A stretch of DNA of 64,000 bases from Acholoe squamosa. Lineage: Eukaryota; Annelida; Polychaeta; Phyllodocida; Polynoidae. The translations under genes and the position numbers were made by a program. Below the pieces are notes generated by a model. That model did not search any database, was not told the DNA's origin, and worked only from the letters and a program-made list of their open reading frames with translations. Numbering within the stretch: the first letter of the stretch is position 1; each line of letters begins with the position of its first letter. Shown in pieces: positions 14,201 to 58,854 of the stretch. The stretch spans positions 42,269,269-42,333,268 of the forward strand of contig OX439041.1 in the NCBI GenBank assembly GCA_949317995.1, in the 5' to 3' direction.

Positions 14201-17200
14201 ACCTGCCCTCACCACTCATAGACTAAAAGTATCGATAACTTTGTTCCCATTGTGCAGATTTGAAAATAAAGACCGCCATGACGCTCGCCAGCTCGAGCTA
14301 CCCTTTATCTATAGGTCACACTATGGGAAACTCCTATTATTAAGGGAGATACGATTTATTTTGTAAAACTGCCAGTTCTTGGACCTCTCTGCCAGTGCCT
14401 GGACTGGCGTCTGCCCCGCTTCCCAAAAAAGCCTATATTTCGATCCATTCCTTCCTCAAACCTGCCCTTTTTCGCCGGTGACACTTAAAACAAATAGGTT
14501 TTGGCTGGAGGTAGGGCACAGGTGGACCAGCTCAGGCCGAAAAGGCTGCTAGTTAAAAAATTTATTTCGCTTATTCTTTTCCGAAACAAATTTTTTAGGG
14601 GGGGGCATGTTCTTTAGGGGATGAAACACCCCAGATTGATACCAAACATTCCATATCCATGCATATTATTTGCATAATTAGCAAAATTATCCAGTATCTT
14701 CATACTTTTTCATATATATATAGATGTGTGTCATTGCTCCCTTATAGAATTCATATGCTTGCAAGTATAAATTACTGACACCTAGTTGGGGTTTTGTCAA
14801 AATCCACATAGAACAGCCGCTCCTCAGTCTCGGTAGTATAGTGTGTATCGGCAAAGCATTACTGTAGTAATGAGTTTTTGGCTCATTCGAGAAGTATAGT
14901 ATGTATTGGCAAAGTTCTAATAGCATAAAAGACTAAATAGACTAAAAGTATCGATAACTTTGTTCCATTGTGCAGATCTGAAAATAAAGACTGCCATGAC
15001 GTTCGCCAGCTCGAGCTACCCTTTATCTATAGGTCACACTATGGGAAACTCCTATTATTAAGGGAGATACGATTTATTTTATAAATCTGCCAGTTCTTGG
15101 ACCTCTCTGCCAGTGCCTGGACTGGCGGCTGCCCCTGCGTCCCAAAAAAAGCCTATATTTTGATCCATTCCTTCCTCAAACCTACCCTTTTTCGCCGGTG
15201 ATACTTAAAACAGATAGGTTTTGGCTGGAGGTAGGGCACAGGTGGACCAGCTCAGGCTGAAAAGGCCGCTAGTTAAAAAATTTATTTCGATTATTCTTTT
15301 CCGAAACAAATTTTTTAGGGGGGCATGTTCTTTAGGGGGACGAAACACCCCAGATTGATACCAAACATTCCATATCCATGCATATTATTTGCATAATTAG
15401 CATAATTATCCAGTATCTTCATACTTTTCCATATATATAGATGTGTGTCATTGCTCCCTTATAGAATTCATATGCTTGCAAGTATAAATTACTGACACCT
15501 ATTTGGGGTTTTGACAAAAGTTTGTCTCAGTCCAAAATTTTATTTCGCTTAATTTCATAACAACACTTAGTCTACATATGTCAGTAACTACTCACAATTT
15601 GTCAGACACTAGTCAATATATGTCAGTAATTAGTTAATATATATTAGTAATTATTCACTATTTGTCAGCAATTAGTCAATACATGATAGTAGTTACTTAC
15701 ATTTTATCAGCATCTAGTCAATATATGTTAGTAATTGCTCACTATTGACAAATTTCTTAGGGGGGCATGTTCTTTAGGGGGATGAAACACCCCAGATTGA
15801 TACCAAACATTCCAAACATAGGGCGCAGGTGAACCGGCTAGTTAAAATACCAAACATTCTATATCAGTAATTACTCACTATTTGTCAGCAATCAGCCAAT
15901 ATATGCCAGTACTTAGTCATTATATAACAACACTTAGTCCATATATGTCAGGAAATACTCACAATTTGTCAGATATTAGTCAATATATGTCAGTAAGTAC
16001 TTGCCATTTATCAGCAATTAGTCAATATATATTAGTAATTACTCACTATTTGTCAGTAATTAGTCAATATATATATCAGTATTTACCCAATTTGTCAGCA
16101 ATTAATCAATATATGTGAGTACTTAGTCACTCTATATCAGCAATTATCAATACATGTCAGTATTTACTCACAATCTGTCAGCAATTAGTCAATATATAAC
16201 AGATAAATAGCCATTGTTTCAATTGTGCATCCTGCCTTGACTGGTATTTGTCGAAATATGTCAGTATCTATGGACTATTTGTCAGCAATTAGTTAATATA
16301 TGTTAGTAATTATTCACTATTTGTCAGCAATTAGTCAATACATGACAGTAGTTACTTAAATTTTATCAGCATTTAGTCAATATATGTTAGTAATTGCTCA
16401 CTATTGACTGATATCTGACAAATTGTGAGTAATTACTGACATATATATATATATATATGGACTAAGTGTTGTTTTATAAGACTAAGTACTGGCATATATT
16501 GACTGATTGCTGACATATATTGACTAATTGCTGACAAATAATGAGTAATTACTAACATATATTGACTAATTACTGACAAATAGTCCATACACAGTGACAT
16601 ATTTTGAAAAAAAAGTGTCACAGGTGAAAGACTCAGTCCTAAAGAACGGGCCTCAATTTCATGTCAAATGACACATTTTCTAGGGTGGACCGACAAATAT
16701 ACCGGTATATATATTGACTAATTGCTGACAATGATGGGTAATTATTGACATATGTGGATCAACATGGTAAAAGGTACGCCCGTGCACCCCCTACCGGGTG
16801 TACCTTTTACCATGTTGATCCACATATATTGACTAATTTCTGATAAATAGTGAGTACTTACTGACATATATTGACTAATTGCTGATAAAGTGAGTAATTA
16901 CTGACTAATTGCTGTTATAGTGACTAAGTACTAACATATATTGATATATTTTGACTAATCACTGACAAATTAGTCAAAATACATCAGTAATTACTCACTT
17001 TTTGTCAGCAATTAGTCCATATATGTCAGTAATTACTCACTATATATCAGCAATTAGTCAAAACATGTCAGTATTTACTCAGAATTCATCAGCAATTAGT
17101 CAATATATGTCAGTATTTGCTCGCATTTTAATGAATAAATGTTAGTAATTACTCACTAGCAATAGGTCAATATAATTATGTTAGTAATTTCTCACTATTT

Positions 17201-20200
17201 GTCAGCAATTAGTCAATATATGTTAGTACTTAATCGCTATATAACAGCAATTAGTAAATATATACGTCAGTAATTACTCACTTTGTTAGCAAGTAGTCAA
17301 TATATGTCAGTAATTACTCACTATTTATCAGAAATTAGTTAATATATGTCAATAATTACTCACTCTTTGTCAGCAATTAGTCATAATATGTCAGTAATTA
17401 GTCACTATTTGTCAGCACTTAGTCAAAACATGTCAGTACTTAGTCACTATTTGTCAGGAATTAGCCAAAATACATCAATACTTAGTCACTATTTGTTAGT
17501 AAATAGTCAAAATGTATCAGTAGCTCCATACTATCACTGACCACTTGTCAATTGACAGTTGACATTTGACATTGAAGCCTCTTCCTTAGGACTGAGTCCT
17601 TCACCTGTGACATTTTTGTTTAGGTCTTTCTTCATAAAAGTCCAATACTTTTCATGGATTAATAAAACTTGACAGTAATGTATTTCATCATCTTCTTCAG
17701 ATTCAAGAGCAGCCAATGCAGTTCTACCTGGAATGGATGCTGTCAACACAGCAGTAGAGATGAAGCGGGAATTACTCACACAGATAGAGATACTCGGCGA
17801 TTCCCTTCCTCCCAACACACTTGACCAGCTTATTGATGATCTGGGAGGGCCTGGTAATGTGGCAGAGGTGAGTGCCAAGAATTCATCAGTCCCATGAGGC
17901 CCTTCGGGCCTTAGGACGTTTAACAAATCAATCAATCTTGCGATGCATGATATTTCTAGATGTTCTGAATTCTAGAGCTAAGACATACCACGTTGTCTAA
18001 CAAATAACGGGCACTGATCTATTCTGTCATGAAAATTTTGTTCATTAAATGAAATAAAGTCTTTTTGAACTTAAAGGTATTAAGTGATATTCACTCTCTT
18101 TCCTCAGATGACGGGACGTAAAGGTCGTGTTGTCAGCACTGATGACGGTGTCCAATATGAGTCACGTAGTGAGGTCGATGCTCCGCTTGAGATCCTAAAT
18201 CTAACAGAGAAGCAGCGCTTCATGGATGGAGAGAAGAATGTCGCCATTATATCGGAGGCAGCCAGCTCAGGTATTTCACTCCAGGCTGATCGTCGTGCCA
18301 TCAACCAGCGACGGCGAGTCCACATGACACTGGAGCTGCCCTGGAGTGCTGACCGTGCCATCCAGCAGTTTGGTAAGTTAAAACTAGAGTATGCATTTGA
18401 TAAGCACAATGTATATCTAAGGCGTGAAAATGAGAGAGGTGTGCTTAGCTGTACCATGTACTTGCCTGAAAAAAATTATATTAAAAAAAATTACCAGTCT
18501 TGAGCAATGGATGTTCTTTCGTAACACTCAACTTTCTGTTTTAGGTCGAACACATAGATCAAACCAAGTTTCAGCCCCCGAATATGTCTTCATGATATCG
18601 GAACTTGCGGGAGAGCAAAGGTTTGCTGCAACGGTCGCCAAGAGACTTGAAAGTCTGGTGAGTATTAATCTTTGTCTGGTTGTGCCTAGTGTCTTATTAC
18701 CATTTGTCTTATTCTACTGCTTCCTTCTGCCTGAATGCTTGTGAAATATAATTTTGTTAATATTTTTAGGGTGCTCTTACACATGGTGACAGACGTGCAA
18801 CTGAGTCGCGAGACTTGAGTCGGTTCAATATTGACAACAAGTATGGACGAGCAGCTCTGGAGGCGGTGATGAAGTCTGTGTTACACATTGAATCGCCCAT
18901 CGTGCCCCCACCTGACAACTATCCTGGTGACTTCTTTGAAGGTATGTCCCTATAAAATGTTTTGTAAATACAGGGTCACTGACATCATCAGCTGGTCAGT
19001 GATCTATAGTTAGAGGGCAGTTTGTATGCAGGGGTAGACACTAACGCTGGCCCAGGAGCCAGTGGCCCGTGATTTTACCCCTGGGCCCGTGGTTTTTCTG
19101 AAAAACATTTCTCTTAAACATAGCTCAGACAGGACTATGAGCCACCCGGTCCCAAAAAAATACTGATATGCATTGTCTCTTTTTGTTTAGATGTTCGAGT
19201 AGCCTTGATTGGGGTCGGTCTCGTAAACTTTGACGAGAGGATTGGCGTTCCAACACTGGAGAAGGACTACAACAACATAAGTAAATTCCTGAACAGGATC
19301 CTTGGTATTACAGTGGAGCTGCAGAATGCTCTTTTCCGCTACTTTACCGAAACCCTCACAACCATTATATTACAGGCCAAGCGTAATGGACGATGGGACA
19401 TGGGTATTCTAGGTAAGGACTTTTCTCATGGCAAATCAGAAGTTATAAATTGAGAAATGCAACTCAATAGCTTGTTTTGAAGCCTTTAATTTCGGTGATT
19501 TTGAAAGTATCCAAAGAATTTTAGTGCCCATTAAACTAGCAAGCATCACTTGAATTTGAGTTTAAAACTGATCTTGCTACGAATCAATACGTGTCTTTTC
19601 TTGTTTCAGATCTGGGTGGTGGTGGTGAAAATGTGAGGAAGCTCTCGAGCAAGAACTTCACAAGTAACTTCTCTGGCACACCTGTACGCACAACGCTGCA
19701 CTCTGTGAGTGTTGAGCGGGGCTTAACGTGGGAGAAGGCCTTCTTAATGTGGCGAGAGCATGCAGGACCTGATGATGGGTTCTACCTCTCAGCCCAGGTA
19801 AGCAACAGTAATAGATATGCACATAATAGGCATTGTAAATATAATGACCCGGGGGTATTGTAAATAACTGAGGCAGTATAGTTAGATGTGTATATATATA
19901 TATCATATAGTGCCCGTGAATTAAAAAAATTATATTGAAAACACTCAAAATCACTTTCAGTCTATAATAACAGCAATCAACCACTTGTATTTCAGGTTCG
20001 AAATGCCAAACGGACAGCAATGTTGGTTATCGCCATGTCTGGGCGCCGCAAGGAGAGGCTGTACTCTGTCTACAGACCTAACACAGGTCTACAACTCCGT
20101 GCTGAGAGCCTTGATAAAATCAAGGCGACATATAGGAAGGTAAAGCATCAAAGTTATTCGTCCTTGAGTTCATTGCAGAAAAATAAAGTTCTCATGGTGT

Positions 20201-31989: not shown

Positions 31990-32454
31990 TGCACATTTTA
32001 TTTCCATTTTATTATACACCTTGAAGTATTTGGTTTATCCAATTTGAAGAGAAATTTCTCTTTTCATAATTTATTACCTAATGAAGATTTATATCACTCC
32101 ACATCCTACACAGTATTCTGGGTATCAGGAGTTTGCTATATTGTATATTACAGTAAGAATCAGTTGACTAAGAAGTAATAACACCGCTAAGGGGCTTAAT
32201 TGCACCGAGCTGAACAACAGCTCAGGTAGTTCCCAGCAGGTGGAATTCCAATAATAATAATTCCCCCTTGCAGATAAGTCTGTAAACCTCCACATGGCTT
32301 AAGACTTCCAAATCCAGCAAAGCGTAATGTGGAAATAAAGAGTCTTGCTATTGATGCAATGGAATAGGGTTTGTACGTCGTGAGTTGCAAAAGCCCAGAG
32401 TAGTTGCAGGAACTCGGGTATCCGTGGTGGTGGGTCGTGTTCTGGTTGGTGTAT
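31990..32454 (-). other. EIF3C: EIF3C 3' UTR and poly(A) signals
   Basis: Reading on the minus strand after the stop at 32455, AATAAA occurs at 32075-32070 and at 32002-31997. These would give a 3' UTR of roughly 400-480 nt. No other gene is seen between here and 31540. Confidence 0.55.
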
Positions 32455-35400
32455 TTAGTAGCGGTTATGGTAGCCACCAGAGCGGTTGTCACGGTTATTG
32501 TCTCTGCCTCCCCTGTAGTTATCATTGTCACGGTTGCCACGATAGCCACCACCCCCATAGCCACCTCCTGAAATTGAAAAAAAAATATAATTGATACATT
32601 TACAAAACACTTCTTTGTGGGAGCCATCACCGTTAAGGTGCACATTTACAGTTAGGTGTAAGTGTGATAATAGCATCCTTGCTTATGATGACTTATCCAT
32701 TTATTAGTTGTAATCATGTTAACTGTGGATGTACTAGAATTCCTATTAGTATTTAACAAAGCCAGCCTACCCTACGAGTCCTAGAAAGGGAAGCTTTATA
32801 GCCTAATTTTGCTTCTGCCAGTTTCCCTGTCAGTTTTTAGACTTAACTACATGGTGTACTATAAGCAGGTCAGAGTGAGTGCATGAATTCTATTTACGAC
32901 AAGACGTTTTTACAAATAGTAGTAATGTTCATTGCATAAATACTTACGGCCTCCTCTCCGATCACCATCGTCACGGTCACGCCCTCCACGATATCCACCA
33001 CCACCTGCAAGTTGTGTCAATTCCAAGACTTAGAACCCATGTTTTTTTCAGCCACATCTCCGTGTGACTTAGAAGCCACATCTCCGTGTGACTTAGACTC
33101 CCTGTTTTGCAACTACATCTACATAAAGATGTCTACAAGGCAATGAGATTTTGAATAAGAATTTATTCCTTTGTCATAGATATGGCTACTTCCGATGGTA
33201 AACCTTCTATTCTTGTTCCGTCAGCTTCTTTGAGACTTCCAACCACCACTGGTGCTAAACAAAGACTTCTGTATCAGATGCTTTTGATAACAATATTTAG
33301 CCTTACCTCTGCCTCCTCTGTAACCGCCTCGTCGGTCCTCTGCAATATATCAAATAGATTAAATTATATCACTCATTCATTTTTTCCATTCTTGTATGGG
33401 TATTCTTAAAACAAAGAGTTTTTTTTTTATTCCCATGAAAAACAAAACCAGCTTGATTGGAGGTAATACTGGTAGTGCACTACCTTTGGTTTAAGCTGGC
33501 ATGTGAACAGTATATGTAGTTACTTTTGATAATTGCCTGAGATTTTTTAACCACACGCATCATTTACATGTACAACAAAATGTTGAATTCTTGAAGGCAC
33601 GCACCATAGTTACCATCGCGACCTCCACGTCCTCGGTAGCCACCACGGTCGCCACCTGGCATATCAGAAAAGACAATCAATACAATATGTTTATACTGAG
33701 CAAGCAAGGAAAACCTATCAAGTCTTAACAGTCATCCTTCTGAGAAGCGCCAGACATTTATTTTAATACATGCTACATGAATATTATAGCACATGTGTGA
33801 TGCATATATACATGTACACCACTGTCTAGATACTCAAGTTAACTGCACTGCACTATTAGTGACCCTATGAGGGCATCACAAGAGACGGGACTAGGGCCTA
33901 ACTAAGTTTGATAAATAGGGTGATTTGATATATAGGCCTACAATAAATCAATGAGACAGATAACTTACCGTATCCACCGCCTCGGCCACCTACAAAATAT
34001 AAATAGGGATAATTATTTCAAAAGAACGCAAAGTTAAATACCGGTAGTAGATAAATTGAGAGCCTGTTATATGAAAGGGACTGTGAACTCCTGCGTATAA
34101 GGCCCACCTCACCTATAAGGCACACTAAAGGGCCTAGTTTTTGACACTTTAATACTACTTTTAATGTAATTATGTCCCACCTTTAAAGCACAACCCCTCC
34201 TTTGGCAAGTTCTTTAAGGTGTGGTTGGCCTCAGATTCACATATAAAACGAGCCTTATATGCGGGAGATTACGGTATTTCAATCTCCATATAGAAGAATT
34301 CGCATTGTAAAACAGCGGGTTATGTCCAGTAAGACTGTGTATAAGCCTCTCCATCCCTACAGGCACAAGGATGACTCAAATGTCTAACCCAAATTGATGC
34401 TCACAGGAGCTTGTCAATGTTGGCGTGCGGCTATACGTAAGGTGCGTGTAATAGACAACGAGTGGTCAGCGGGTCTTCTCACTGACGTGCATACCAAGCA
34501 TAGCACAGTGGACCTACAGAATATGACACTGAAAGTTTATGGCTAAAAACTCATCGAATCTATGGAAGGCGAAAGTCAACGCAAGGATGACATCTGTGAA
34601 GCTGACATACTAAATTTCAGAAAGTCAAATTCCACCATCCCCTTACACGAGGGGGCAAGGCAACAGGATTATACAACGGAGTTGTAAGGCCAATGGTCTG
34701 TATTGTATTAAGTACCAGTGGTTCATTTGGTATCTAAATTTTGGATAGGGGTAGCCAATATTTTCCCAATTGTTTGAGCAGCAGAGCATATATCAAGCAG
34801 TGAGAGGATAAAAATGAAGGGCACTGACTAGAGTCTTTGCAAGGTGAGAAGGCAAAATGACACCTATAGCTAACATCAGGCTTAGTGACCACTGCAAAAA
34901 GCAGTCACAGGGAGCAGGTACGAGGGGTCTGGTGAATGGGGGAGGGGTCCTCACTCATCGCAATAACATAGCTGTCAGTGACCTTGTTGTCTTGTTGTGG
35001 ATTATAAAGATAAGGGGAGGGGGGTCTTATGCTATATAATTATTGCAAGGAAAGCATTCAAATACAGGGTGTTAAAAACAGTGTGTGACATCCAGCATAG
35101 ACTATGCACCTTACTATGTAAGGGTCATCTAATAGCTATGTGTATTTGACGCCCACATGTTAATACTGGATATATGTCCTCTATGGTTTTAGCACTCATG
35201 GCTTATTTGACACTGCAAAATACTAGGGAATTACTGACTCTAGGCTATAGACTCTTCAGACTGGAAATAATTCTCCCCCTGTTTCTACTCTGAGCAAGGG
35301 TTTCCTTGAAGAGGGGATCTGGTGATTTTTGGGTTCCATCCCATACCCTACGTAGTAAAAGCCTATAGTCTAAGGACCGTTGGCATAATAATATCCATCC

Positions 35401-38400
35401 TGGTCCGCTTTACACTGTTTGGTAGTGTGCTCTGTTTAGAAATGTTCACAATCATTATGTTGCTACCACATCCTGAAATGTCCATACATGAAAGTTGCTT
35501 TGTTTAGGGGTGCCTGGGTGATTCTCACTTTATTCTTTTAAAAAAGAAATTTGCGGCGATCCTTAAAAAGAATTAGTTCTCTTTTTCAAATAGGCAATTC
35601 AGAGGAGGAAACGTGTGAACCCCAAGCAAATAATTCTCTCTGCATGGCTACTCATACATACACTTTAGGTGTACCGGGTAAGGGTACATAGGATTAGTAA
35701 GCGACTATGTCTATGCTATTGATACATTCCTAAATGGAACATCCATATATTATTGACCTATAGGTGAAGAATGTGATTTCATCTGGAGCTTCTCTACGCC
35801 AACTACCAGTCTATCAAAAGAGGTTATTTGTCACTTCTTTATCTCTTTATCCTTTGACCTCGCTTCCTGGGCTTCCATAGCCCATATCTAAGAGTTGGAT
35901 ACAATATTCATCTGGTAAACTGATGACTAATTTGTTTTCTCACCAATGACATGACCTTAGCTGTTGAAATGACATTAACCCAACATCCATCAGTCACTCA
36001 TCCACTGACAAGCATCTATGGCAACAACATTAATCATGCATTAAACCAACATGAGAGATACACTTAGTCGGTATATTAAGTCCCTGTAGGTTATTCAAAG
36101 AGGATGACAAAGCAGGGGTGTGAAATCCTGAAACCCATTTCCTCTGAAGCATATTATACATCTCCCATGGACTAGCTTTACATTAAATGGAAATAATTAA
36201 AACAGTGAATTAGGCACTTTTTACCACCTTATGTTGTAAAGGAAGGCTGAGAATATCCATGGAGATATAAAACAGCTCCATTTGGGGTGAAATTAGATCC
36301 AATATTGGGTAAAATTATAAGACCCCCCCCCCTTTTTTTTTTATAAATGGTAACTTTTTCTCAGCAGATTTGCACAGATCTCAGATATGGTCCTGGAGAG
36401 CATCAAAACCTCTGAATTCAGTTTCTTCTGAGATTTCACACCCCTGACAAAGTTATCGGTAGTAAACTCCCCCCCCCCTTCAAAAAAGTTCATTTAAACA
36501 TCTCCGTATGTTATTCAAAACCTGCTCAATTAGGGGTTATCCTAGGTAGCGAAAAACATTCGGCCATACTAAGTTTTGATTCCCGACCACCAACGATTCC
36601 CATTGTTAGTAGGTCAGTCATTTACAAACACATTTAATGTTACATTTATACTCTCTGCCCATCGTATTTTATCTTCAGAAATGTACTGGTCATAATTTTC
36701 CCAGATGGTGTTTACAACACCCCGCCCGCACTATGTCTGACTAGTCTACACACGCTCTAACAATCACCTGAGCTCAAGTATCTAAACATATGGTTAAATC
36801 CTCTCATTCCAGTCTCTTGACTGAAGATCAAATAGTTTGGAATACTGAGCTGAAATGATCTTAAAACGATGATACAATAGCTTTACGCCAACAAGACAGT
36901 AAAAAGGTTAACTTGCCAAATCCGCCTCTGCCACCTAAAATGTATAAACAGGGTAAACTTACTTACTAAGTTCAAAAATGATCAGTGGCTTACAGCCTTG
37001 ATCGCCATAGCCAGTAGTTTTGAGTGTGGGCCAGTGATTATTTTTTTTTTCAAAAACAACCTCCCTACTTGCCCAGGTGGCCAGTGGGCTTTCCACCCAC
37101 TAGTACACTGTATCTGGTAGAAAAGGTCATCATAACTACAAGGATTCTCAAAGTGCTGGCGAAATGGTCTTATGGTGATGTTGAAATTTTAACATGCCAC
37201 AGATGTCGCTTGATTTTGCTACTTTTTTTTTAATTTTTTTTTTTTTTTTTTTTACATAGCGCCAACAAGACAGTGAAAAGGTTAACTTGCCAAATCCGCC
37301 TCTGCCACCTAAAATGTATAAACAGGGTAAACTTACTTACTATAAGTTCAAAAATGATCAGTGGCTTACAGCCTTGATAGCCATCCCATCCATTCAGCCC
37401 CCTGCTCCCAAGGAATCTTTGTAAACCATAGGGTCCACTGGGATCTTATACACAAATCCAAGGATTCTTTTCTTAAACACCCTGAACAATGAATGCTCTT
37501 TGCACACACACATTCATATAATGCTCAGTGGAAAGTTCCATTAAACATTTTATCAATCTGAATCACTTTTCATACCACCGGGTATTGTTCTCAGCCACAG
37601 AACATCCAAGTTGAAAGCATCACTTAAGTTGCAATATAGTCAGGGGTAGACACTAACACTGGCCCGATGGCCAGTGGCCTGTAGTTTTGAGTGTCGGCCA
37701 GTTAATTTTTTTTTTTTAAATCACCTTCCTACTGGCCAAGGTGGCCAGTGGGCTTTCCACCCACTAGTGGGCCGTACACTGTATCTAGTAGAAAAGGTCA
37801 TCATAACTACAATATTCACAGAGTGCTGGCGAAAATGGAATCAATGGTGATGTTGAAATTTAAGCTTTTTTTTTGACATAACACAGGCTTTTCCAGCTAT
37901 GAATTCCGGGCCAACAGCTTTACCTACGGGACAATGGATTTCTGAGTCAATTGGCCCTGGTGGCCAGTGGCTAAAAATGTTAGTCTCTACCCCTGAATAC
38001 ACCATCTGCAGACACCCATTTGGGATACTTATTCAAATACTGGCACTGAATGACACGAGTTACCTTCATGCGACTCATTTTCAGCCATGACCGAGGTCAG
38101 CAACAGATCTATGGACAGGCAATACTAGTTTATAACAAGCAATATAATTATTATAATTCTGGCTCTGTATCTGCAATGAAACTGGGACGTGAGACACTTC
38201 TATCCAGCAACACATCAAAATATCGCTCAAGTCCTGTAAATACTACACGAAGAGAGTGATGAACTGAAGCTATTTGTGCACATCTCCCAACATTTGCGAC
38301 AATATCTATTGTAAACTGATAAAACGAAAAAAATAAAATTCAGATTGTCCAGGGATGTAAGCCAGGGTGTATGAAAAATTCTAAATATACACATAGAAGT

Positions 38401-41400
38401 TCTGATTTTATTGCAAAATACAAAAAAAAAAAAAAAAAAGATCTGAGAAAAGAAATTTGGGTAAATCTAAAAGGCATCTCAAACTCTGGAAGTTCTGAAA
38501 TCAGACAAAATTCTGAAAACTTACATCCCTGGATTGTGACGGATTAATATCATTATATACAACATAAAAATAAACTTGTCATATGTACCTCTGAAGTTCC
38601 GGTCGCCAAAACGGTTTCCTGTGCGAAGAGAACAAATTGATCGATTCATTATTACCTGATACTAAATAATACTATCTAAAATACCCTTCCATTACATGGT
38701 TATTCTTAAGTATCTGGTATATACAACTTCAGCATCCTGATAGCTAGGCCTACAGCTGCAATTATTCAATTGAGTTTTAATTTATTCACATTTCTAAACG
38801 GTAGGGCATTAATTATGGTTTCACATAAGTGCCATGGTTTAGGATAATTTCATTTGAGTCCTTCGGTATTTAGATCTGCAGAGTCGGGGCTGGGGGGGGG
38901 GGGGGTGAAGAGATAAATGCCAGACCCCACATGCAGGGTGGAGAGTATTTAAACTGGTTTGATTCGCTGCGACACAGCAAGACCATTCCAAGTATTTAGA
39001 ACCCCTGTGGATAGAGGAAAAATGCTAATAAATTAAATCAAAATGAACATATGGTGAGTAGTTTAAACACTAACCTTGCTTGTTAAAGAAGTAGCCACCT
39101 TGCTTCATCTCCATGATCCTCTCATTGTTGTCAACCAGTGTCGAAACCTTCTCAGACAGCTGCAACGCGAGTGACTGAAGACGTGTGGGCTCAGTTCTGT
39201 GCATCATTACTGTCTGGGTTGGCTCGTCAAGAGATGCCTATAAATCAATTGATCACATTATAAGAATATGATCATTAACGGTAATTAATGAGGATTAAAA
39301 CGGTACTTCAACATAAAAAAACTTTGAAATAATTAGGTTGAAAATAAGTGATAAGCTTCTGAAAGCTAATGTGGAAGCATTTACATTATTCATAAATTCA
39401 AATATCACATATTATTCACCATGAGCTCCTCATTGATGATCATTTTACTAATGGTGGAATGAACGACAGGCTTGGCAAGTTCAAACATCTCAGCCAGCAG
39501 GTCGAGTGACAAAGAGTTGTAGACAGAGCTGTAGGTGAAGAGGTATGTCCGTAGAGACTCCTCCTTTATCTTCTGTGTCATCATTTCACGTACACGGTCC
39601 TTCTGGTGAAACAGGTCCCACACCTAAAAGAAGTTGCAAGGACATCAGTAGTTATTATAAATGTTGTGAACGAAAGCGAATGACCAGACGAAGAATGTAT
39701 GTTAAGTCAAATCATTTAATGTTAATGTTTAAAATCTAGGAGGTCAGTCTGTAATCTAGAAAGTCTTCTTTTTATATGAATGTTTTAGCATACTTTACAG
39801 AAACTAGGATTTTAATTTTGAAAGCTCTGAATGAAACAACTGACCTTGGCATTCATCTTCTCATTGACGATGAAGTTACAGCAGTTGTTCCAGTTGCCGT
39901 TCTTCATGGCCTTGGATGCAGCAACAACGTGCTCACGCATGCTCTCTGGGGGCCCTACCAGTGGCTGGCGCTCAGATACCCGAAGTACGTGATGGAAGTT
40001 TTTACTGATCATACGCCGCCGGGCATCAAACTCATGGGCTGAAACCACAAAGTATCTCATCAAAACATGGCACTTGGTTTCAGCCACTTGGTTCAGCTTC
40101 TAGAGGTGCGACTTATAGCATTAATTTAATGGTAGTTACTATGCAAACATGGCATAGTACCCTATGGGATATCCATGTTTAGGTAGGGGGCACTGGGGTA
40201 GTATCCATAGATTGGTGACTACACCTTATACCCCTATTGCCATAGTGGTTTGGCCCACCCTCTCCCTCCTCTCTGGTTAAGCACCACCTAGTTATAACCA
40301 TTAGCACTAGAACAAATCAGTTACAGGTGCCTCCCCATAGGTGGGATATTTATAAGGAATAGAAAGGAATCTTGCCCAGCAGGGCTATTAATAAGGAATC
40401 CAACAGAAGCTTAAATTTGATAGCCCTGCGGGGAAAAATTCTTTTCTAACCTAAATGTATAGCCCTGCGAGGCAAGATTCTATTCCTGTCAAAATTGATT
40501 AAAAAACCCTGTATACAACCAATAGACAGTATCATTAGGGTTTAGGGCTGTTCCTCTAGTTCTATAAGAAGAATGGGATGTTATCATGGTTCCTTTTAAA
40601 AGAAATCATGGCTTTTTAAAACCATGATAACATCCCTCTCTTCTTATAGAACTAAAGGAACAGCCCTAAACTAGTAAACCCTACTGATACTGTCCCTATT
40701 GGCTGTATACATGAGTTTTAACCAATTTGAAATAGAATAGAATTTGCCTCGCATGGCTATTAATAAGGAAAAGAAAAGAATCTAGCCCTGCAGGGCTATT
40801 AATAGGGAATCCAATTGAAGCTTAAATTTGATAGCCCTGCGGGGCAAATTTCTTTTCTATCCTGTACCATGGCTTTGTCAAACCATGATAACATCCCTCT
40901 CTTCTTATAGAACTAGAAAAATAACACCTAGAGGGAAGCACCTGTGCTGCCATCATCTGTGTATGGAATAGACTAGAGGATGGGCCAAACCACTTTTGGA
41001 GAGAAGGGGTGTCAGGTGTAGTTGCTAATCTGTGGATACTACTCCAGCGCCCCCTACCTAACCTTGGATATCCCATCTGGTACTATGCCGCAAACATCAA
41101 TCCCATGTAATTTCAAATTTACAAATTCTCCAATGGAAAGGCTTAATCACCCCAAAACTTCGTTAAAAATCTATTTATAACCTCAACATACCAGCCATGT
41201 AGGGGATCTCCATAAGCATAGCAGAGACGAGGTACACACACTCGAGCAGCTCGAGGTTAATGTGCATGTGGTACGGCATCTGACGCCGTTTCTCAATCTT
41301 CTCCTGCTCTGGTGTCCTCTCGTGTTGGCGTTGTAGTAACAAGCCCTACAAACACAGAAAACATCAGTGAATACTCTGCTTATCTTCTTCTGGTACACAA

Positions 41401-44400
41401 TTAAGAAATGAATTAGCTTGAATACAAGATAACTGTCCTCAGGACCATTCATTAATCACAGACGATGGGGGTGGGTGTGTTTCTGTGCTAGTTGTATTAC
41501 TACACTGCCCAATCAGCAATGGAGCATTGGGCCATGCTTGTCCCAATATAAGTCGGTATCAACTCAATATAAGCCGACATTGACCCAATGTATCCTTGCT
41601 ACCTGGGCACAGTGCATTCATTTTCTCTTTAAAAAGTGATGGATTTAAAACGATAGCTAACCTGGGCAAGTAGTTCCTTTGCACGTCCTCCACTCTGGAT
41701 GTCGACTAGACAGTTGTGGGCGTCATTTATCATGCCCTGACGGAAGGCGCACAGACCAAGTTGCACCATGGCACGGTTATACATTATCTTAAAACAGAAA
41801 TCAATTTGTTTCAATTCTAAAGGGGGAGATTTCGTTGGTATACCTACGAAGTGGATTCCTGCTATGCCCTTACAGCATGTGGTATACCGCATCCACATAG
41901 AGGTTATCATTTGTATTGCCCCACAGAGGGTCTTGTTTAGAGTTTGGTAGGAGTCCTTAGAATTGCCTTTGGTTGTTGGAGAACCTCCATATGGCGCCAT
42001 GAACTGACCAACGACCAGACAATTGAGGGTGTCTACATCTTTCAAACTTTTGTCAGTTGGGGGCAGATAAATTCATTTTCTGAATGTTTAATTCATCAAA
42101 AGTAGAGCGAGTAATAGATGTTCATTGCACTTCGACAGCTACGGTCATATTAATGGAGAGGAAACTATATTACACAATTTCACATGTGAATATATGTCAG
42201 TGTCCGTACATACAGAGGGGACAGAAAAGACACGCTTCAGACTCTGAAGTGGGCTAGGGAAGCCTATCAAAACTAGAAGATTTTTGTAAATCTATTATTT
42301 AGTTTAGTGACATGGTATGCATCTTACAGAATGACTATGCACTAAGACAGAGATATCTAGGATAACTTGGAATTGAATATTTGACCAGAGCTCTTTATCC
42401 AATCATATACGCGACCCCCTGTGGCTTCACAGGCTATTCCATCTTATTCATAGTATCCCCTCCTCTTTTTAAGATTACAACAGACGTAATGCACACAAGA
42501 AGAATGCAATTTTAAAGATTAAAGATAAAAGTTAAACGGCCTGAGATAAAAGTTACTGCCGACTCTTATTACATTACTCTGATTTACACAAGATTCAGTC
42601 ATACATAACAAACTAACCTGGGTTGGGATGTCAGAATGCTCAATGTTATCTTGGAGATGTGACATGAGCATCAGATCACGGGCTTCATACCATCGGTCAT
42701 GCAGTGCATGGTGGTAGATGTGACATAGAATGGCGCGTGTTCGTATCCTATCTGTATTATCCTTGGCATAGATATAGGTGCAAAACTTGTCCATTTTCTT
42801 TTCAGAGCCCTCCTCGATGACTGGGTAACTCTTGTGCTCTCTTTTCCGCCGTTCGGCATCAGTCTCTGTTTTCTCTTCTGGTACAGCTTCTTTGTTCTCA
42901 CCATCTTCTTCTGGTTTCTTCTCTCCCTCTTTGGGTTCCTCTGCGCTTTTGTCATCTGCAGGCTTAGCATCTACGATTGTGATTTCTACTTTGGGTACCT
43001 CTGGTTCAGACTGTTCAGGCTCTTCTGGTTCAGGTTGTGGGGTCTCTCCGGGTAACAACCGCCTCGACCTCTTGTCAAACTGTCATAGATTGAAATATTT
43101 GTTAGTTACAGACTAGTAGTAAACAGTCAGCATATCTGTTGCTAACTGATTCCAATTTATGCTCTATCAGCAAAGAAACAACCCTAGCATATAGTTGTTT
43201 TAATCGTAAAATGTCAAAAGACAATGAGGTATGATTTATACAATTTATGATTGGGACAACTTGCTCAAACATTACTGAACCTTTCAAGGGAGCCTTCAGG
43301 ACAACTACCCTTAAAAACAGGGATGGAATGGATCACAAAATCCCTATAATACGCTCAATTTGCACCTCGAAAATATCACATGTGGATTGTATTTGTTTTT
43401 AGAACTTGAAAATAATGCTGATTAATTGTGCTGAAGACTCTCAGATGACCAAATCGACTAAAAAAAAAACACGCCCAAATTGGAGAAAAGGTCTAGGGTC
43501 GGCCCTGTTATACACACCTTTCTTTTTTTTGCCTAGTCTTATATGTACTACGGTATACCTATCTAGGAAGATCTAAAGGCCAAATTGGCTGCTATCTAAT
43601 GAAATTTTATGAACTTCTAAGAAAAATCACGGGCCCATATTTAAACCATGGGCCATTGGCCCCCAGGCCAGCTTCGTGTCTGATACTGACTGAATGTGGA
43701 AGTGATATCTCGTATGGGACACAAGATCAAAATTGTTATACATAAAAGTTACTCACTTTATAATACATGTGCTCCACACGTTTGAGGTATATACGGCAGA
43801 TCTCTTCTGTTGTAGAGCGTCCAGACATGTACTCCTCCAGGTCTCTAAGAATTTTACACACAACTCTTTCATCTTTCAACCGCTCTACATACTCTGTGCT
43901 GTGTGCATCACATCCCTGTAGCATTTTAATGAACTCCTCATCAAGGCGCTCAACAATGGTAAGAATACAGGCACGGACACGGAAAGGGGGACCAGAGGCA
44001 AAATCCTCAGATTCCTCAGCCACGTTAGCTCCCACAATGATATCGGTGTTCTCCTGCAACTTCTCCAACAGGTCCTGGACAAAGGCCACACACTTTTCCC
44101 ACATATCTTGTTTCATGTGATTAGCAATGCTAGAGTTGTAGTCAAAGATGGCAGAGACAATATCAAACATAAGCCTGACATCTACACCAATGCCAAGGTT
44201 GTGCGCAGCAGCAATGCTTCGCAGCTCAATCAGCATTTCAATCTGGGTGTTCCGGTCGGTAGCTTTCTTGCCACGGGCACTAATTATCTCTATACGTTTC
44301 TTCTTGACAGCATCATGAGTAATCTCTGCATCTTTAGAGAACATTTTAGGCCTCTCAGATGTGAGTGGGGCACCACCCTTGATGGTAGTCCATTCTCCAT

Positions 44401-46911
44401 CTTTATCATCATCTTCACTATCCTTCTCCATCTCCTCTCTACGCTCACGACGCTCTCTTCGCCTCTTTTCTCGCTCCTTCTCCTTCGTATCATCTGATGT
44501 GACCTTTTTCCTGAAGATATCTGGGCCCAATTTGGTATCAAGAGGGATATCATCATCTTCATCAGATTCTGAATCGCTGCTTGAACCCCAGTCCATGTCT
44601 GAATCAGAGTCTTCGTCATCACGATCCTTTGCGATAGTTACTTTCTTTGGTGCCTTTGCTTTGAAGAAGTCTGATGCAGGTATTTCTGGCCCTTCTACTT
44701 CATCTTCGTCATTTGACATCTCATCTTGGTCTCCGTCAACATTGCCGTCCTCGACATCAGGCTTCTCACGGTAGGCAGTAATATCAGTTTCGAAGTCCCG
44801 GGTGTATTTGCGTAGTTTTTGACGCAACGTAGTCAGACCTTTAGCATTGTTCTTGCTCATGGCTTTCCTTGCAACGCGATCTTCCCAGCACTGAAATAAA
44901 ATGTTATATATGCATCTATCACACAAAGTGTTGCCTTATTTAAGATTTCATCCGCAATGTGTCTTATGCAATTTACAAAATATATGTTATTCACATGTTT
45001 CATGTGACATCCAAAATACCATACACTATATCTTGCATAGCAAAGAAAAGCCTAGTCAATGATGATCACATAAGCAAAACTCATACCTCGTTGACAAAGT
45101 CTTCAAGCTCAACCAAACAACGGATGTAGAACCGAGGCATGCCCTCCTTCTCTACAACTTTCTTGGCCTTGTCAAATGCTTTGCAGAGATCTTCAAAATC
45201 TGTTGAAATGTAATCACATAGATAATCATATGGATTACTAAGGTGGTTTGATCGATAAGCAGGTTCGACTTTGATCCAAGGAGTGGAAGTGACAAAGCAT
45301 TACAGTTCTTGAAATGCTCAATTAGAAGCCAGATAATATAGGTCATTCACAGGAATGTATTACAGTACAGGTCTTTTTAACTTGGAAATCGCCGGCATTG
45401 GGGAAGTTTGAACATTACTTATATGGATAAGCAAGGAGGAGACATAAAATTTGGTGCTTTTTACCCCATCCCCGATGTGGTATGAATATAATGCAGCAAT
45501 GTAAATTGCTGATAACTCGAAAAGTGAAAAGCCTGTGATTGGCTCCCATGAGTTGTGCACTCATCCTGTTGCATCAGCACTCCCATTGACTGACACGCCG
45601 TCCTTTACAGGGGACGCCATGGAGTCAAGCACTCCCTGACCCAGGTTATTCGCACCACCAAGCCACTATTCGCATAACTCCCGCCAAAACTGCGCTATTC
45701 GCACATTGCAAAAAAAAGGCGGGAAAGTTGATACATGGATCAACATCATATACCTTCACCATTGGAGGCTAAAAGCGTCTTAGGCCACCCAGAGGGTGGG
45801 ATTTTTCAGACCCATGAGGAAGGGGGAATTTTTTTTTTATTTGTCATGAAAAACGTAAGCGGGGATGCCATGAAATTGCCATCACATTCTAGGATTTAGT
45901 GATTGGAAGCCTAGATTCTTTAGCTGACGGATAAAAAAAAATCTTTTTTCCGGAACTCGGGAAAAGATTTTCCCATTCTCACAAAAAAGTCCACCAGGCC
46001 TCTGGACAGGAAACAAACATATTTTTAAGGGTGGCCTTATGGCTGCCAACCAACTGAGTCTGTACAATATTGACAATTGCTCATAATTTACAAAACTTGG
46101 TAATGAAATACCTTTTCCTGCAACACCCCTACATCTCCTCCTTTAATGGCACTACAAATTCATTAAGTAATTCTGCCTCTTATATATAAAATTTCCATCT
46201 TTTTTAAAACTTATTCGCCCCACCAAAATGACTGAAAGTGCAGGGCCCCAGGGTGTCTCCTTATAACTCGTTTTTCGAGATAAAAATGTTCCTACACTAT
46301 TTACTACACTTCTTCTTACAATCAATAACACTGTATATTTATTTTTTACAATGATGAAACAAGGCAGACTCATATCACCACTAAAACAAATCTATGCCAA
46401 AGAAGCACTGTACCTTGCAATACATTGGCCATATCCTTGATTTTCTTGTGGTTCTTAATGTCCTTGATCTTTGTGTTGAGCTCTTCATAACGCTTGTCTT
46501 TGGCGCTACGCACAACACGCTTAGTATCCTCTTCATCGTCACTCCACTGGAATTTCCTGTACTCAGAGATTCAAATTATAATTAGTTCCACAATTTTAGG
46601 AATAGGAAAGTTGATCAACTTCCTGTCACTATTTCAAAAGCCTTTATTATTACTTGATTCAAGTTCAACAGTATTCACTTATAATTGGCTGTTAACAAAG
46701 TTTTTCCTATTAAAATGATAGAATAATACTCTGTCTATTTCTTAGGGTCACAAAGTAGTGTAGTGTAGTGGCAAAAGGTTATATAGGAAGATTATGGGTT
46801 CCGATTATTTTACCTCTGAGTGATCGCTGGCTTCTGTTGCAATTCATCATCAGATGATGAGGTCTCGCTCTCTGTATCAGAGGCATCAGCGGCGTAAAAC
46901 CTGGACGTCAT
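32455..46911 (-). CDS. EIF3C: Translation initiation factor 3 subunit C (eIF3c), complete, 18 coding exons
   Basis: Core PCI-domain subunit of cytoplasmic eIF3, which binds the 40S subunit and eIF1/eIF5. Exons, 5' to 3': 46911-46814, 46556-46414, 45199-45087, 44890-43757, 43079-42618, 41787-41662, 41345-41192, 40038-39845, 39623-39420, 39237-39075, 38618-38589, 37308-37291, 36934-36917, 33989-33969, 33655-33605, 33339-33307, 33004-32948, 32567-32455 (TAA 32457-32455). All phases agree; 3,132 nt, 1,043 residues (human about 913). Start: ATG in the strong context agccaccATGa, [16 protein letters not shown], like vertebrate MSRFFTTGSDSESE. Hallmarks: [18 protein letters not shown] (exon 2), [10 protein letters not shown] (exon 3), acidic linker residues about 160-290, [22 protein letters not shown] (exon 5), [16 protein letters not shown] (exon 6), PCI region from [12 protein letters not shown] (exon 7) to [10 protein letters not shown] (exon 9). 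The C-terminal 113 residues are an expanded RGG tail. The acceptor at 46934-46933 shows a separate 5' UTR exon upstream. Confidence 0.97.
33050..33096 (+). repeat. 24-bp direct repeat in an EIF3C intron
   Basis: 'agccacatctccgtgtgact' occurs twice head to tail. Local duplication only. Confidence 0.85.
34080..34276. mobile_element. 'CCGTAATCTCC' family MITE, copy 3 (left end degraded)
   Basis: The right end is cgggagattacgg-ta at 34262-34276, as in copies 1 and 2. The left end (about 34080, ctgtgaactcctgcgtataagg) is recognisable but diverged. It lies in the EIF3C intron between the 18-nt and 21-nt exons. Confidence 0.65.
36882..37390 (-). repeat. EIF3C: Tandem duplication carrying an 18-nt EIF3C microexon
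   Basis: Blocks 36882-37005 and 37256-37380 are nearly identical (gccaacaagacagt through gatcagtggcttacagcct). Each contains the exon at 36934-36917 or 37308-37291, identical in sequence, encoding GRGGF with split flanking glycines. Each exon is followed on the minus strand by GCAAGT instead of GTAAGT, a GC-AG intron; only this donor keeps the frame. Between the blocks lies a piece of the CAGGGGTAGAC element (37005-37255). Confidence 0.85.
37641..37995. mobile_element. CAGGGGTAGAC element, 355 bp, in an EIF3C intron
   Basis: The left end is caggggtagacactaacact and the right end is gttagtctctacccctg, an inverted pair. CAGGG ends suggest a hAT-like MITE, though the flanking 8-mers (aatatagt, aatacacc) agree only in part. 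Its interior is repeated at 37005-37255 and its left end at 19029-19105. Confidence 0.7.
38350..38531. mobile_element. hAT-like MITE 'CAGGGATGTAAG', copy 3 (182 bp)
   Basis: The ends are cagggatgtaag and cttacatccctg. GATTGT repeats flank it (38343-38348 and 38532-38537). It contains a poly(A) run near 38420. It lies in an EIF3C intron next to the 30-nt exon. Confidence 0.85.
40151..41089. mobile_element. Foldback element, about 940 bp, almost all inverted repeat
   Basis: The left arm starts ggcatagtaccctatgggat and the right arm ends atcccatctggtactatgcc. Inner landmarks also pair: aggtagggggcactgg with ccagcgccccctacct, tttagggctgttcct with aggaacagccctaaa, and ttatcatggt with accatgataa around a centre near 40605. 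It has no coding capacity. It fills most of the EIF3C intron between exons 7 and 8. A fragment recurs near 50325-50385. Confidence 0.85.
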
Positions 46912-47171
46912 GGTGGCTCTTTACCACGGCACCTGAAATGTAGAAATATACTATTATTCAATATATTATGCTAAAGATGATACTTAGTAGTATAGCCGGC
47001 CAAAACTCATTGGGTTTGATAACCGGGTAGTAGATGGACGTCCGTCCTATGCGTATTGTAAGTGTAGTGGAAGGCAGCCTCAGACAGAGGCTATTGATAC
47101 TCAGTTCAATAGCCTGGGGTCAGCTCTATATCCCACTGGATGTGTATTCCATTTTATTGTTTTATTACCCC

Positions 47172-54500: not shown

Positions 54501-57500
54501 TTCCAGGATAAATGCAAAGTGTATGAAATTAAGACACTTTGCCCTCTGTGAGATGACAATTTCTACTCCGAGATAGAAATTTTGAAATATGCGCGACAAT
54601 TCTTGCTCTCCTCAATTCTGCGCATTTGACTGAGAAAGATCAAAACACCAAACGACGACGACTGTTGCAAACATGCCTCCTACACCACACATTGACTGTC
54701 CACCCACTGGCTCCAGCTGTTCCCATCTATTTCTACTGGAAGCAGCATTTGTTTAGTAGTTGAATAGTCAACTGTGTCCACCAACTGGTAGCATAAACAC
54801 CACAAGGCTTAAAGGGAGAGCAGATGTGCGTGTTTAGTCCTGGTGCTGGCATTACCGGCATGTTTAACTTGACAATTTCTATCTCTGTTAATGATTGTTT
54901 TGAGGTAGCACATTATGGATATCAATATTAGATCATCATATTTCAGTTTTGAGCAAGATTAAAAACTTAAGTGTACAAAAAGATAGAAAAAGGGTTTATA
55001 AAGTGATTTTGTGATCTATATCACACATTCAATCTTATGAGTGTTGGGGGTCTGGTACATGTATGGACATGGATAGGTACATGTGGTGTTGTGTGGATAA
55101 CCAACCCTGAGCCATGTGTGCTTCAAGGCACAACGTCAATTCATTCGTTAGGAAGTGGTCATTTTTTAACAACATGGGGTGGGGGGCTGGTTAGTTTGCT
55201 CGCAAGGGTAAAAATTTGTTGACCCCCACCCATAGGCAATGAAAATTTGCATAAAGCACACCCTTTTATCCTATACAATGTAGTAACACGCAGGCTTCTT
55301 CGCTGAAAATTATTTCGACCCCCTCCTGCTTCGGAGGGCTTGAAAGAATTTCGACCCCCCCCCCCCGCTAAAGGGCTTGCAAAATTCTGATCCCCCAACC
55401 CAACCCACCTTCCCCCCAACGTTGTTACAAAATGATCACTCCCTTAAGAAGGGGTGAAAATTTTTTGCCCCTCCACCCAAATCAACCACCCCTCCCCTGT
55501 AGTTATAAAAATGACCACTCCCTCAGTGGGCCTGTATATGGAGTCTGAGAAAGACATGCGTGTCAACGTGTGGGATTTTACAGACAGGGTCACTTTTTAT
55601 CCCATATAGTCTGCTGCCTCTTCCCATGTCCATCGGATTGTAAAAGTGCCTCTCTACCTTCTCCCTGTCCCCTCTGCCTCCTGCCTGCCCCCTCCTTACC
55701 TACTTCCTTCCCCGTCTCTGCCTCCTTTCTACCCCGTCTCTGCCTCTTCCTGATCATTGACAGATAAACCACTTGCTAACAGGTCGTGACTGCTGACAAT
55801 ATGATATATATTTGATGTATATTTGTAGTTGATGTATGTAGGTGAGTTTTCCAATGACAGTCATATTAATCCCAAGTGTAAAGCTTCCTCTACTTCATCG
55901 ATATTGGTCTAATCAACTGGCATATGATCATTCTAGATATTGTCACACATATGATATTCAAAAATAGACAACACAGAGTTACACAGAATTAATTCCCTAT
56001 CCAACACAATGTTTGCTTGTAGGTTTCCGTGCCAGATCAGCGTTCAAACTTCTCCAGTTAAACAGAAAGTATGAGTTCCTCCAGAACTCGCGTGTGTGTA
56101 TCGACCTGTGTGCCGCTCCTGGAGGATGGCTCCAGGTGGCAGCACAGAACATGCCCGTCTCCAGTGTCATCATAGGTAAGTCTCTACCACACATCATAGG
56201 GGAAGATCTATCATTGTGTGTTCTAACTATACTTAACACTGAAAGGATGACTATAGGTTTAAATTCACTGTCTTCCTGAATTATCAGTGCAGTGCTGTAA
56301 AGAGACTTCGGGAATTTTATCAGTCCTGTAATGTCAGCATAATGCATGCATACACTCACTGCTCAGTTACACTCATTCATCACGACACCCAATGGTCATG
56401 AGACATTAAAATTCTATGCGGCTCCTAAAAAGATAACCGTTATGGGAATAGGTATGTTTATCTGGTAGTTCAAAGTTAACAAAAGACATAGGGTATTGGT
56501 AGAGCCAGCGTCTTTGTTATATAAACAGATCTACCTGAAGATCATTCAAAACATTATTATGCATGTGCATCAATGATAATATCGGTAATATCCCCAAAGT
56601 TAGGGCTTGGCATGTTAGGGAAACTGATGATTTACAAACAACTCTTTGTTTTTAGGTGTTGATCTGGTGCCCATAAAACCAATCCACAATGTGAAGACCT
56701 TCACTGAGGATATCACCACTGATAAATGTCGCCAGGTAATGCTTTTTGTACAATATGGGAATAAGAGAGAGAGAGAGAGTGCATTTAAATGAATATTTTT
56801 AAATGGCTCACTTAACACACACACAAAAGTATACCTTATTTATTAGAGGATTCGACACGTTTCACGATCTAAATCCCTTGAGAATATTGGAATTCTCTTT
56901 ACCTATATGTCTGACCTGGTTGTAGTGAGTTCCTTTGTCGATTAGTTCAGAAATAAACAGAGACGTTTTGGTTCATTGCAGGTTTTGAAGAAAGAGCTTC
57001 ACGACTGGAAGGTGGACGTGGTGCTGAACGATGGTGCCCCCAATGTCGGCAAGAACTGGGTACAGGATGCCTTCTCACAGGGTAAGAGTACTATCAATAA
57101 TAGGTTGATAGCTTTTTATATACCAGCAAGTTGATTACACAGGGACTACTGGTTTACTAGTAACTACGTGGGATACCAACATATATTGTCTATAATCAGA
57201 CTAATTTCGACAGTCTTCAGTAATGGCAGGGATGTAAGCCTTCAGGTTTTATCAGGATTTCCTAATTTAAAAAAAATTTGAATGACATGTATTTCCCTGA
57301 TACAAGTGGTAAGGAGGGCTGTTTGGAAAAATAGAAGGCTTTTATATCAAGTAAATGTATGGCTTCCTGATGTTTGCCCTTGCCTGACTTACATCCCTGG
57401 TAATGGTATACTGAAAAAAAAAGATTTCATTGGAATTCAGTCACACTATATGTAATAAAACATTATTTATTTTGTAGCCGAGCTGACCTTGTCTGCCATG

Positions 57501-58854
57501 AAACTGGCTACAGATTTCTTGAAGAAAGGGGGGTGGTTTGTAACGAAGGTCTTCAGATCAAAGGACTATCAGTCATTGATGTGGGTCTTCTCACAGCTTT
57601 TCCGCAAAGTCTACGCAACCAAACCACAAGCTTCACGTAATGAGTCTGCTGAGATCTTTGTCGTTTGTCAGGGCTATTTAGCACCCGATAAACTTGATGA
57701 AAAGTTTACAGATCCTAAGTATGTCTTCAAAGAGGTACTTGGCGGCCAGAAGAAAAAGGATGTCATGAACCAAAAGGCCAAACCGTAAGTGAGAATGTCT
57801 TGAATTCAATTGTAATTCGCAATATCTTGAAATCAGAAGTAATTTTTCTTGGAAACACAGGGGGGAGAACTTAAAAAATGAATGCAGTATGATGTTGATA
57901 AGTACATATACTTGATTGATAAAACAGGATCTTTTGGAAACATAGCCTTCTACTGTAATCAACCACACATGCTGCCTTTCCAAAGCCATATGGCTAGATT
58001 TATTTAATTGCTGACTGCATGATTGTAATTTCAATAAATGATAACGGAAATAGCGGGTGAATAAGACAAATTGATGTGAACATGTGTATATTTTGTTCGT
58101 GGTTTGTAGGAAGGCTGAGGGTTATGCTGACGATGACCTTGTGCTGCATCACAAACTATCCGCGTTAGAACTTGTTAAGTCCGACAACCACATGGAGCTC
58201 CTGGCAGATGTGCACGAGGTCAGAAGCATGAATTTAGAATGATTTTTAACTTTACCTAGAATTTGGCATGATATATAGACTTTTAAATACATTTCGTTGA
58301 TCTGTGTCATTTTCTCTGTTGTAGGTTGTTCTTGATGATGAGGAGCTTCAAAACCATAAATTGACAACAGATGAACTACGGGAATACTTTAAAGATATCA
58401 AAGTCCTTGGCCGACGAGAACTTAGGTAGCGACAAATACACTACTTATTTCTACCACAAAAGTCATAATTGCAAACTCCTCAGTTTTTTCAGTTTATATG
58501 GGGGTGGTAGTCTTAGAAAATTTTGGATCAGCCATCCATAAAATGCACCAGCATGCATCATTTGGCTTCTCAGAATACACAATTTTTTAGGGGGAGACCG
58601 CCCCCCCCCCCCCCAATTTTTACCAGAAAAATCTTATTGTCCAGAGTTTGCATGTATGGAAAGTAAACACTCTCTGAGAATGATATCAAACTGGTATTGT
58701 CTGTATAGCATTTTCTCTGATTGATATGCGAAAATATAAACAATAGACTTTAATAAACAATCAATCTAACGGATTTGCTTTTCAGACTGGTCTTGAATTG
58801 GCGAAAGAAGATGAGGGCTCACTTTGCCGCTTTGAAAAAGGCCGCGTCACAGAC
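48599..58854 (+). CDS. FTSJ3: FTSJ3/Spb1 pre-rRNA 2'-O-ribose methyltransferase, 5' part (8 exons)
   Basis: Nucleolar SAM-dependent methyltransferase for 60S precursor rRNA. Exons: 48599-48665, 56023-56175, 56656-56735, 56982-57081, 57478-57784, 58110-58218, 58325-58425, 58786-58854 (986 nt, 328 codons, ending mid-codon before GTAAGT). Start [20 protein letters not shown] matches vertebrate and yeast starts. The FtsJ domain has the K-D-K-E catalytic set: K31 (SAFKLLQ), D117 (VVLNDGAP), K157 (FVTKVFRS) and E192 (ESAEIFVV); SAM motif [13 protein letters not shown] is in exon 2 and VDLVPIKP in exon 3. [19 protein letters not shown] is near-invariant. Exons 6-8 enter the Spb1 middle region ([28 protein letters not shown]). 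The Spb1_C half is not found in the last 5.1 kb and presumably lies beyond 64000. The first intron is 7.4 kb. Confidence 0.96.
48776..49130. repeat. G-rich repeat 'ggggtcagaattttttc' in FTSJ3 intron 1
   Basis: Begins gagtgatcattttttaacaac and then repeats ggggtcagaattttttcaa units separated by G runs. Related sequence with inverted ends lies at 55150-55446. Confidence 0.6.
49155..50460. repeat. Inverted clusters of 'gacacctcggaagcagag'
   Basis: Forward units lie at about 49166-49202 and 50222-50250, and reverse units (ctgcttccgaggtgtc) at about 50383-50452. The outer clusters face each other, so this 1.3-kb stretch may be a mobile element or a foldback. A fragment of the 40151-41089 element (cagtatcaatagggtt, agaagagagggata) lies at 50325-50385. 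Confidence 0.5.
50493..51943. mobile_element. DNA transposon remnant, 1,451 bp, 25-bp perfect inverted ends
   Basis: The left end 50493-50517 starts ggggctgtgtacaaatgacg; the right end 51919-51943 is its exact reverse complement. A 3-bp repeat AAT flanks it (50490-50492 and 51944-51946). Each end contains the palindrome TGACGTCA. Inside are a segment shared with 590-930 and no recognisable transposase. A Harbinger-like origin is possible from the 3-bp duplication. Confidence 0.8.
52240..52450 (+). repeat. Clustered 'aaggtca' motifs in FTSJ3 intron 1
   Basis: The block has about eight (A)AGGTCA or close variants, including aaggtcaaggtcaaaggtca near 52260. It is a short tandem motif cluster; nuclear-receptor binding is possible from the motif but unsupported. 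From 52450 to 55020 I see no gene and no clear repeat. Confidence 0.5.
55150..55446. mobile_element. MITE-like block with ends 'agtggtcattttttaacaac'
   Basis: The left end is gaagtggtcattttttaacaac and the right end gttgttacaaaatgatcactccct, inverted to each other. The interior is C-rich ('aatttcgaccccc'), the complement of the G-rich repeat at 48776-49130. Confidence 0.6.
57227..57399. mobile_element. hAT-like MITE 'CAGGGATGTAAG', copy 4 (173 bp)
   Basis: The ends are cagggatgtaagccttcagg and gacttacatccctg. The direct repeat GTAATGG flanks it exactly (57220-57226 and 57400-57406). It sits in FTSJ3 intron 4 and is the cleanest copy of the family. Confidence 0.9.

Follow-up and report, generated by a model that had tools for sequence, protein, structure and literature searches.

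We consider it likely that the disordered C-terminal tail of EIF3C in the polychaete Acholoe squamosa has been extended into an array of RGG motifs, at least partly by the in-frame duplication of phase 1-1 mini-exons. The gene lies within a stretch of 64,000 nucleotides, the window of this analysis, in which the tail is divided among eight small exons, two of them identical in sequence.

Gene model and identity of EIF3C

EIF3C is read on the minus strand from position 46932 to 32455, where 18 coding exons join into one open frame of 1043 aa with a single stop. The first coding exon (46814..46932, minus strand) carries the start codon and encodes MTSRF, with the alignment to human EIF3C beginning at residue 3, and exon 4 (43757..44890, minus) is the largest exon of the protein body, placed by the gene model and PF05470 within the eIF-3c_N region. 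Exon 10 (39075..39237, minus) is the last exon of the gene model before the tail. In Pfam, PF05470 (eIF-3c_N) covers residues 33-749 with 729 bits (E 4.9e-219) and PF01399 (PCI) covers residues 819-890 with 40.1 bits, giving the order of eIF-3c_N followed by PCI that identifies EIF3C. Comparison beyond the worm's own genome was made with PDB chains, and each of the 14 matches at E <= 0.001, the best with E 0, bears the name eIF3c, subunit C or subunit 8; the alignment with human EIF3C covers residues 3-519 and 587-946 of the 1043-aa protein. Judged by its sequence, the gene is thus the ordinary EIF3C of an annelid-like animal, with a body well conserved with that of human. A protein search of the same genome with exon 10 and the tail as query returned two matches, both of them the EIF3C gene itself, and no spliced retrocopy, which would have shown the exon joins.

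The upstream neighbour of EIF3C, at 6455-18500 on the plus strand, is a homologue of strawberry notch with matches to PF13872, in two pieces, and to PF13871. The downstream neighbour, at 55968-57788 on the plus strand, holds an FtsJ-like methyltransferase domain (PF01728), likewise split in two. Between 27640 and 29775, about 2 kb contain patches of a degenerate tandem repeat with a commonest period of 20-21 nt (TTGGCAACATTGGGAAACCCT and variants). The mitochondrial contig, of which the first 9,999 of 15,641 bases were read, agrees with annelids in its gene order and genetic code; in it, a long stretch of simple TA repeat lies between trnA and trnS, at approximately 4451-4867.

The RGG tail and its exons

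Exons 11-18 encode a tail of 113 residues with 47 Gly and 27 Arg. Proteins of the RGG/RG-motif type are recognized by at least three closely spaced RGG, and the EIF3C tail has 13 RGG in its 113 residues. All of its exons are on the minus strand, and in the gene model the seven internal ones are each phase 1-1: exon 11 (30 nt, 38589..38618), exon 12 (18 nt, 37291..37308), exon 13 (18 nt, 36917..36934), exon 14 (21 nt, 33969..33989), exon 15 (51 nt, 33605..33655), exon 16 (33 nt, 33307..33339) and exon 17 (57 nt, 32948..33004). Exons 12 and 13 are identical and each is followed by a GC donor, and the flanks of exon 14 are, with moderate support, similar to theirs in the flank alignment. Exon 18 (32455..32567) supplies the final 113 coding nt including the stop codon, and AATAAA occurs near it at positions 32070, 32008 and 31997. 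The original prediction had described a tail of 30, 18, 18, 21, 51, 33, 57 and 113 nt spanning 32455-38618, joined in frame to exon 10, with about 13 RGG and internal exons that are phase 1-1 and divisible by 3; each of these points was reproduced in the predicted gene model. Searched alone against PDB and against Pfam, the tail gave no match in either at E up to 1.

The length of 51 nt for exon 15 is uncertain because a competing in-frame donor lies 9 nt upstream and agrees with the consensus at 6 of 9 positions, the modelled donor at 5; use of the competing donor would end the exon at 33614, giving 42 nt and removing the three residues GNY. In-frame, Gly/Arg-rich mini-exons were sought with a scanner that required a pyrimidine-rich acceptor and a donor matching the consensus at 6 or more of 9 positions. 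With the Gly+Arg fraction set at 0.5 it picked up each of the seven internal tail exons, exon 15 solely in its 42-nt form. At a fraction of 0.6, by our count six of the seven pass, and nothing was found on the plus strand of the window or on the minus strand outside the tail. Scanning introns 10-17 likewise gave no additional hidden mini-exons. Across the genome, two restricted patterns for RGG mini-exons gave 24 and 30 matches, one of which is EIF3C exon 14. Among the three other most RGG-like matches, two lie within longer open frames (one of these passing the scanner) and one has no scanner match; the other 50 were inspected visually in the matched sequence alone. Run backward as controls, the two patterns matched 279 and 10 times, making the first pattern uninformative.

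Duplication of exons 12 and 13

The two 18-nt exons lie in a direct duplication, found by repeat detection and genome search, which the original prediction, in proposing that the tail could be lengthened by exon duplication, had not described. Exon 12, its acceptor region and its donor are contained in a unit of 125 bp (37260..37384, minus), and exon 13 in one of 123 bp (36886..37008, minus). BLAST gives 97% identity between the units, and the differences, two substitutions and a gap of 2 nt, leave the exon itself untouched. Each unit extends from 74-76 nt upstream of the exon to 31 nt downstream and therefore comprises a whole splice unit, GC donor included in both. A search of the 1.48-Gb genome with the 125-bp unit found these two copies and no others, where a miss need not mean rarity. 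Adjacent exons with copied flanking introns, as in exons 12 and 13, are what defines a tandem exon duplication. As these exons are identical within a duplicated unit and the flanks of exon 14 are similar with moderate support, the EIF3C tail has probably lengthened through exon duplication, with one recent event at the least, and the expectation of lengthening by this route is borne out.

Between the two units, 37009..37259 (plus strand) is taken up by a piece from the interior of a small inverted-repeat transposon, without the termini of the element. The transposon is present in full nearby at 37641..37995 (plus strand), where it is 355 bp long and has terminal inverted repeats matching at 17 of 18 bases. 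Eleven loci of this transposon were compared, including the window copy; both ends were present with no more than 2 mismatches in five of them, which are 352-373 bp in length, and not in the other six. The transposon can also be aligned with the final bases of the unit around exon 13, and break repair or template switching is proposed because of this short homology at one junction. The latest event would thus have copied the 18-nt exon, its acceptor region and its GC donor as a 125-bp unit, probably through such repair or switching, leaving the internal transposon fragment between the copies and adding six residues with one RGG. The segment 37009-37259 was also considered as an entire transposon flanked by a long target-site duplication, a reading that was rejected because related copies extend past both its ends and it lacks terminal repeats. 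Poly-A retroposition of the unit, considered in view of a T run at 37234-37253, was dropped, the run being oriented wrongly for a 3' tail. In the intron between exons 13 and 14, the segments 34647-35391 and 36113-36447 are interspersed repeats with many copies in the genome, mostly of 79-93% identity among the 40 of 4844 candidates that were scored.

Older kinship among the tail exons was assessed by aligning exon pairs together with 80 nt before and 60 nt after each exon, giving 21 pairs. Exon 12 against exon 14 scored 46, compared to a maximum of 33 in 169 controls with flanks swapped from other introns of EIF3C. When the flanks came instead from decoy splice sites anywhere in the window, a score of 46 was reached in 34 of 20000 controls, a chance rate of about 0.002 before allowing for the 21 pairs, and the best decoy scored 55. 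The score of 42 for exon 13 against exon 14 was reached by 50 of 20000 decoys, and that of exon 14 against exon 16, weaker than those of exons 12 and 13 with exon 14, by 70 of 20000. Taken alone, the acceptor flank in the exon 12/14 comparison had its equal in 19 of 245 decoys by local alignment and in none of 245 by anchored identity. Six of the 21 pairs stood above all swapped-flank controls (12-13, 12-14, 13-14, 14-16, 11-13 and 11-14), the last two by one or two points; 11-12 showed no excess. Small excesses of this kind are regarded as noise, since exon 11 exceeds the controls with exon 13 and not with the identical exon 12. As the remaining 15 pairs show no excess over these controls, duplication is not shown for exons 11, 15, 17 and 18. 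An older duplication within the group of exons 12, 13 and 14 has moderate support from these sequence alignments.

Intron phase, splice sites and possible skipping in frame

All eight of introns 10-17 are phase 1, compared to two of the nine introns that precede them (introns 1-9). With every intron in or bordering the tail in phase 1, all 128 combinations of skipped internal exons keep the frame, giving predicted tails of 37-113 aa with 1-13 RGG. The tail is therefore modular in the sense originally proposed, able to be shortened in frame by skipping and lengthened in frame by duplication, as seen in exons 12 and 13. All modelled introns end in AG, and all donors are GT except those after exons 12 and 13, which are GC (GCAAGT) and are new relative to the earlier reading. 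Retention of intron 10 would bring in a TAG immediately after KQG, and one TAG is located inside the genome match to exon 10. Donor consensus matches are 5-7 of 9 in the tail and 5-8 of 9 in the body, such that tail donors as a class are not clearly weaker than body donors. Exons 12 and 13 are separated by an intron of 356 nt, and mutually exclusive use of the two exons by steric exclusion is not expected at this length.

Since the frame survives the loss of any internal tail exon and two of these exons have GC donors, some variation of tail length through splicing is plausible. According to PMC2490688, GC donors show enrichment in genes with alternative splicing in human, nematode and Arabidopsis, which by analogy gives a hint only that the EIF3C tail may be alternatively spliced.

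The symmetry of the tail exons was compared with three genes of the same genome, in which three internal RGG exons were measured. Fibrillarin has two internal RGG-bearing exons of 213 and 66 nt, both phase 1-1, and GAR1 has an RGG-bearing exon 2 of 54 nt that is also phase 1-1, with the intron preceding its last exon likewise in phase 1 and splitting a glycine codon. In the HABP4/SERBP1-family gene the RGG block lies within one open frame. A glycine codon split after its first G matches the usual exon-junction sequence. Because the internal RGG exons of fibrillarin and GAR1 are also 1-1, phase-1 symmetry is probably generic to RGG exons of this genome and no special design is needed for it. 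The uniform phase and the divisibility by three noted previously are thus present, and their standing as a special feature of EIF3C is weakened. What is unusual in the EIF3C tail is the number of its exons and their sizes of 18-33 nt, not their phase; its 51- and 57-nt exons are near the size range of the control RGG exons. The RGG exons of fibrillarin and GAR1 resemble those of the EIF3C tail in phase but are fewer and mostly larger, with none of 18-33 nt in the parts of the genes read.

Comparison with known systems

Mammalian EIF3C (the human chain of PDB 28zx and others) shares with the worm protein a stretch just before the tail, MASLD.PTQTV.MHRTEPT, followed by KQG, and its aligned end also has Gly, Tyr, Arg and one RGG. 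The human chain, however, is 913 aa long and aligned to residue 904, whereas the worm tail alone has 113 residues and 13 RGG. In the passages of PMC11746136 on eIF3c in the human 48S complex, an N-terminal domain, a linker and a CTD are described and a C-terminal RGG tail is not mentioned. Within the open-access literature, which leaves most subscription papers outside, no RGG tail on eIF3c appears in the titles and abstract beginnings of the matches listed.

RGG-box proteins such as FMRP, FUS, EWS, Caprin-1 and ALY/REF share disordered Arg/Gly repeats with the EIF3C tail. The array in EIF3C, for its part, is carried by a core subunit of eIF3, is divided among eight exons and includes a fresh exon copy. 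RGG boxes are presented in passages of PMC4822317 as RNA-binding elements that are altered by arginine methylation and splicing, and in FMRP and ALY/REF alternative splicing is described there as changing the RGG or neighbouring regions. By analogy with RGG proteins generally, the tail would most likely be a basic, arginine-methylatable and RNA-contacting extension of the eIF3 core, and it may influence translation.

Origin and possible role of the tail

The same features can be accounted for in other ways. Neutral drift, in which a loose Gly/Arg composition suffices and introns and extra exons accumulate with no selected function, exon duplications being tolerated because the frame is kept, is possible but somewhat unlikely. 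The symmetric phases do make any duplication harmless to the frame, and the one observed is recent and adjoins transposon debris in repeat-rich introns; however, eight exons free of a stop or frame break, with 13 RGG kept, suggest constraint on composition. Use of the mini-exons by the cell, which would skip them, for example under stress, and so tune RNA binding by eIF3, appears rather unlikely as the main explanation. It agrees with the complete set of in-frame skip combinations and the range of tails that these would yield, with the competing donor in exon 15, and with what is reported of GC donors (PMC2490688) and of RGG regions in FMRP and ALY/REF (PMC4822317), but phase 1-1 looks generic for RGG exons of this genome and the tail donors overlap those of the body in strength.

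That the second 18-nt exon is an artefact of assembly or haplotype is highly improbable. A unit present twice at 97% identity within 500 bp could raise this concern, yet the copies are 251 bp of different sequence apart and differ by substitutions and a gap, a transposon fragment is not what a false join would ordinarily introduce, and the whole structure of 499 bp could be covered by a single long read. Extension of the tail by in-frame mini-exon duplication is the preferred reading. A further idea is that the tail acts as an evolvable RGG counter, in which the number of mini-exons would differ among individuals or close species and inclusion at the GC donors would set the number of RGG units per eIF3 complex; this is speculative and held to be quite unlikely.

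EIF3C of this worm, a core translation factor, appears to show a disordered tail while it is being lengthened by an exon of six residues. Should the number or inclusion of such exons vary, eIF3 would naturally occur with graded doses of RGG units, and the role of an RGG tail in translation initiation could be tested directly.
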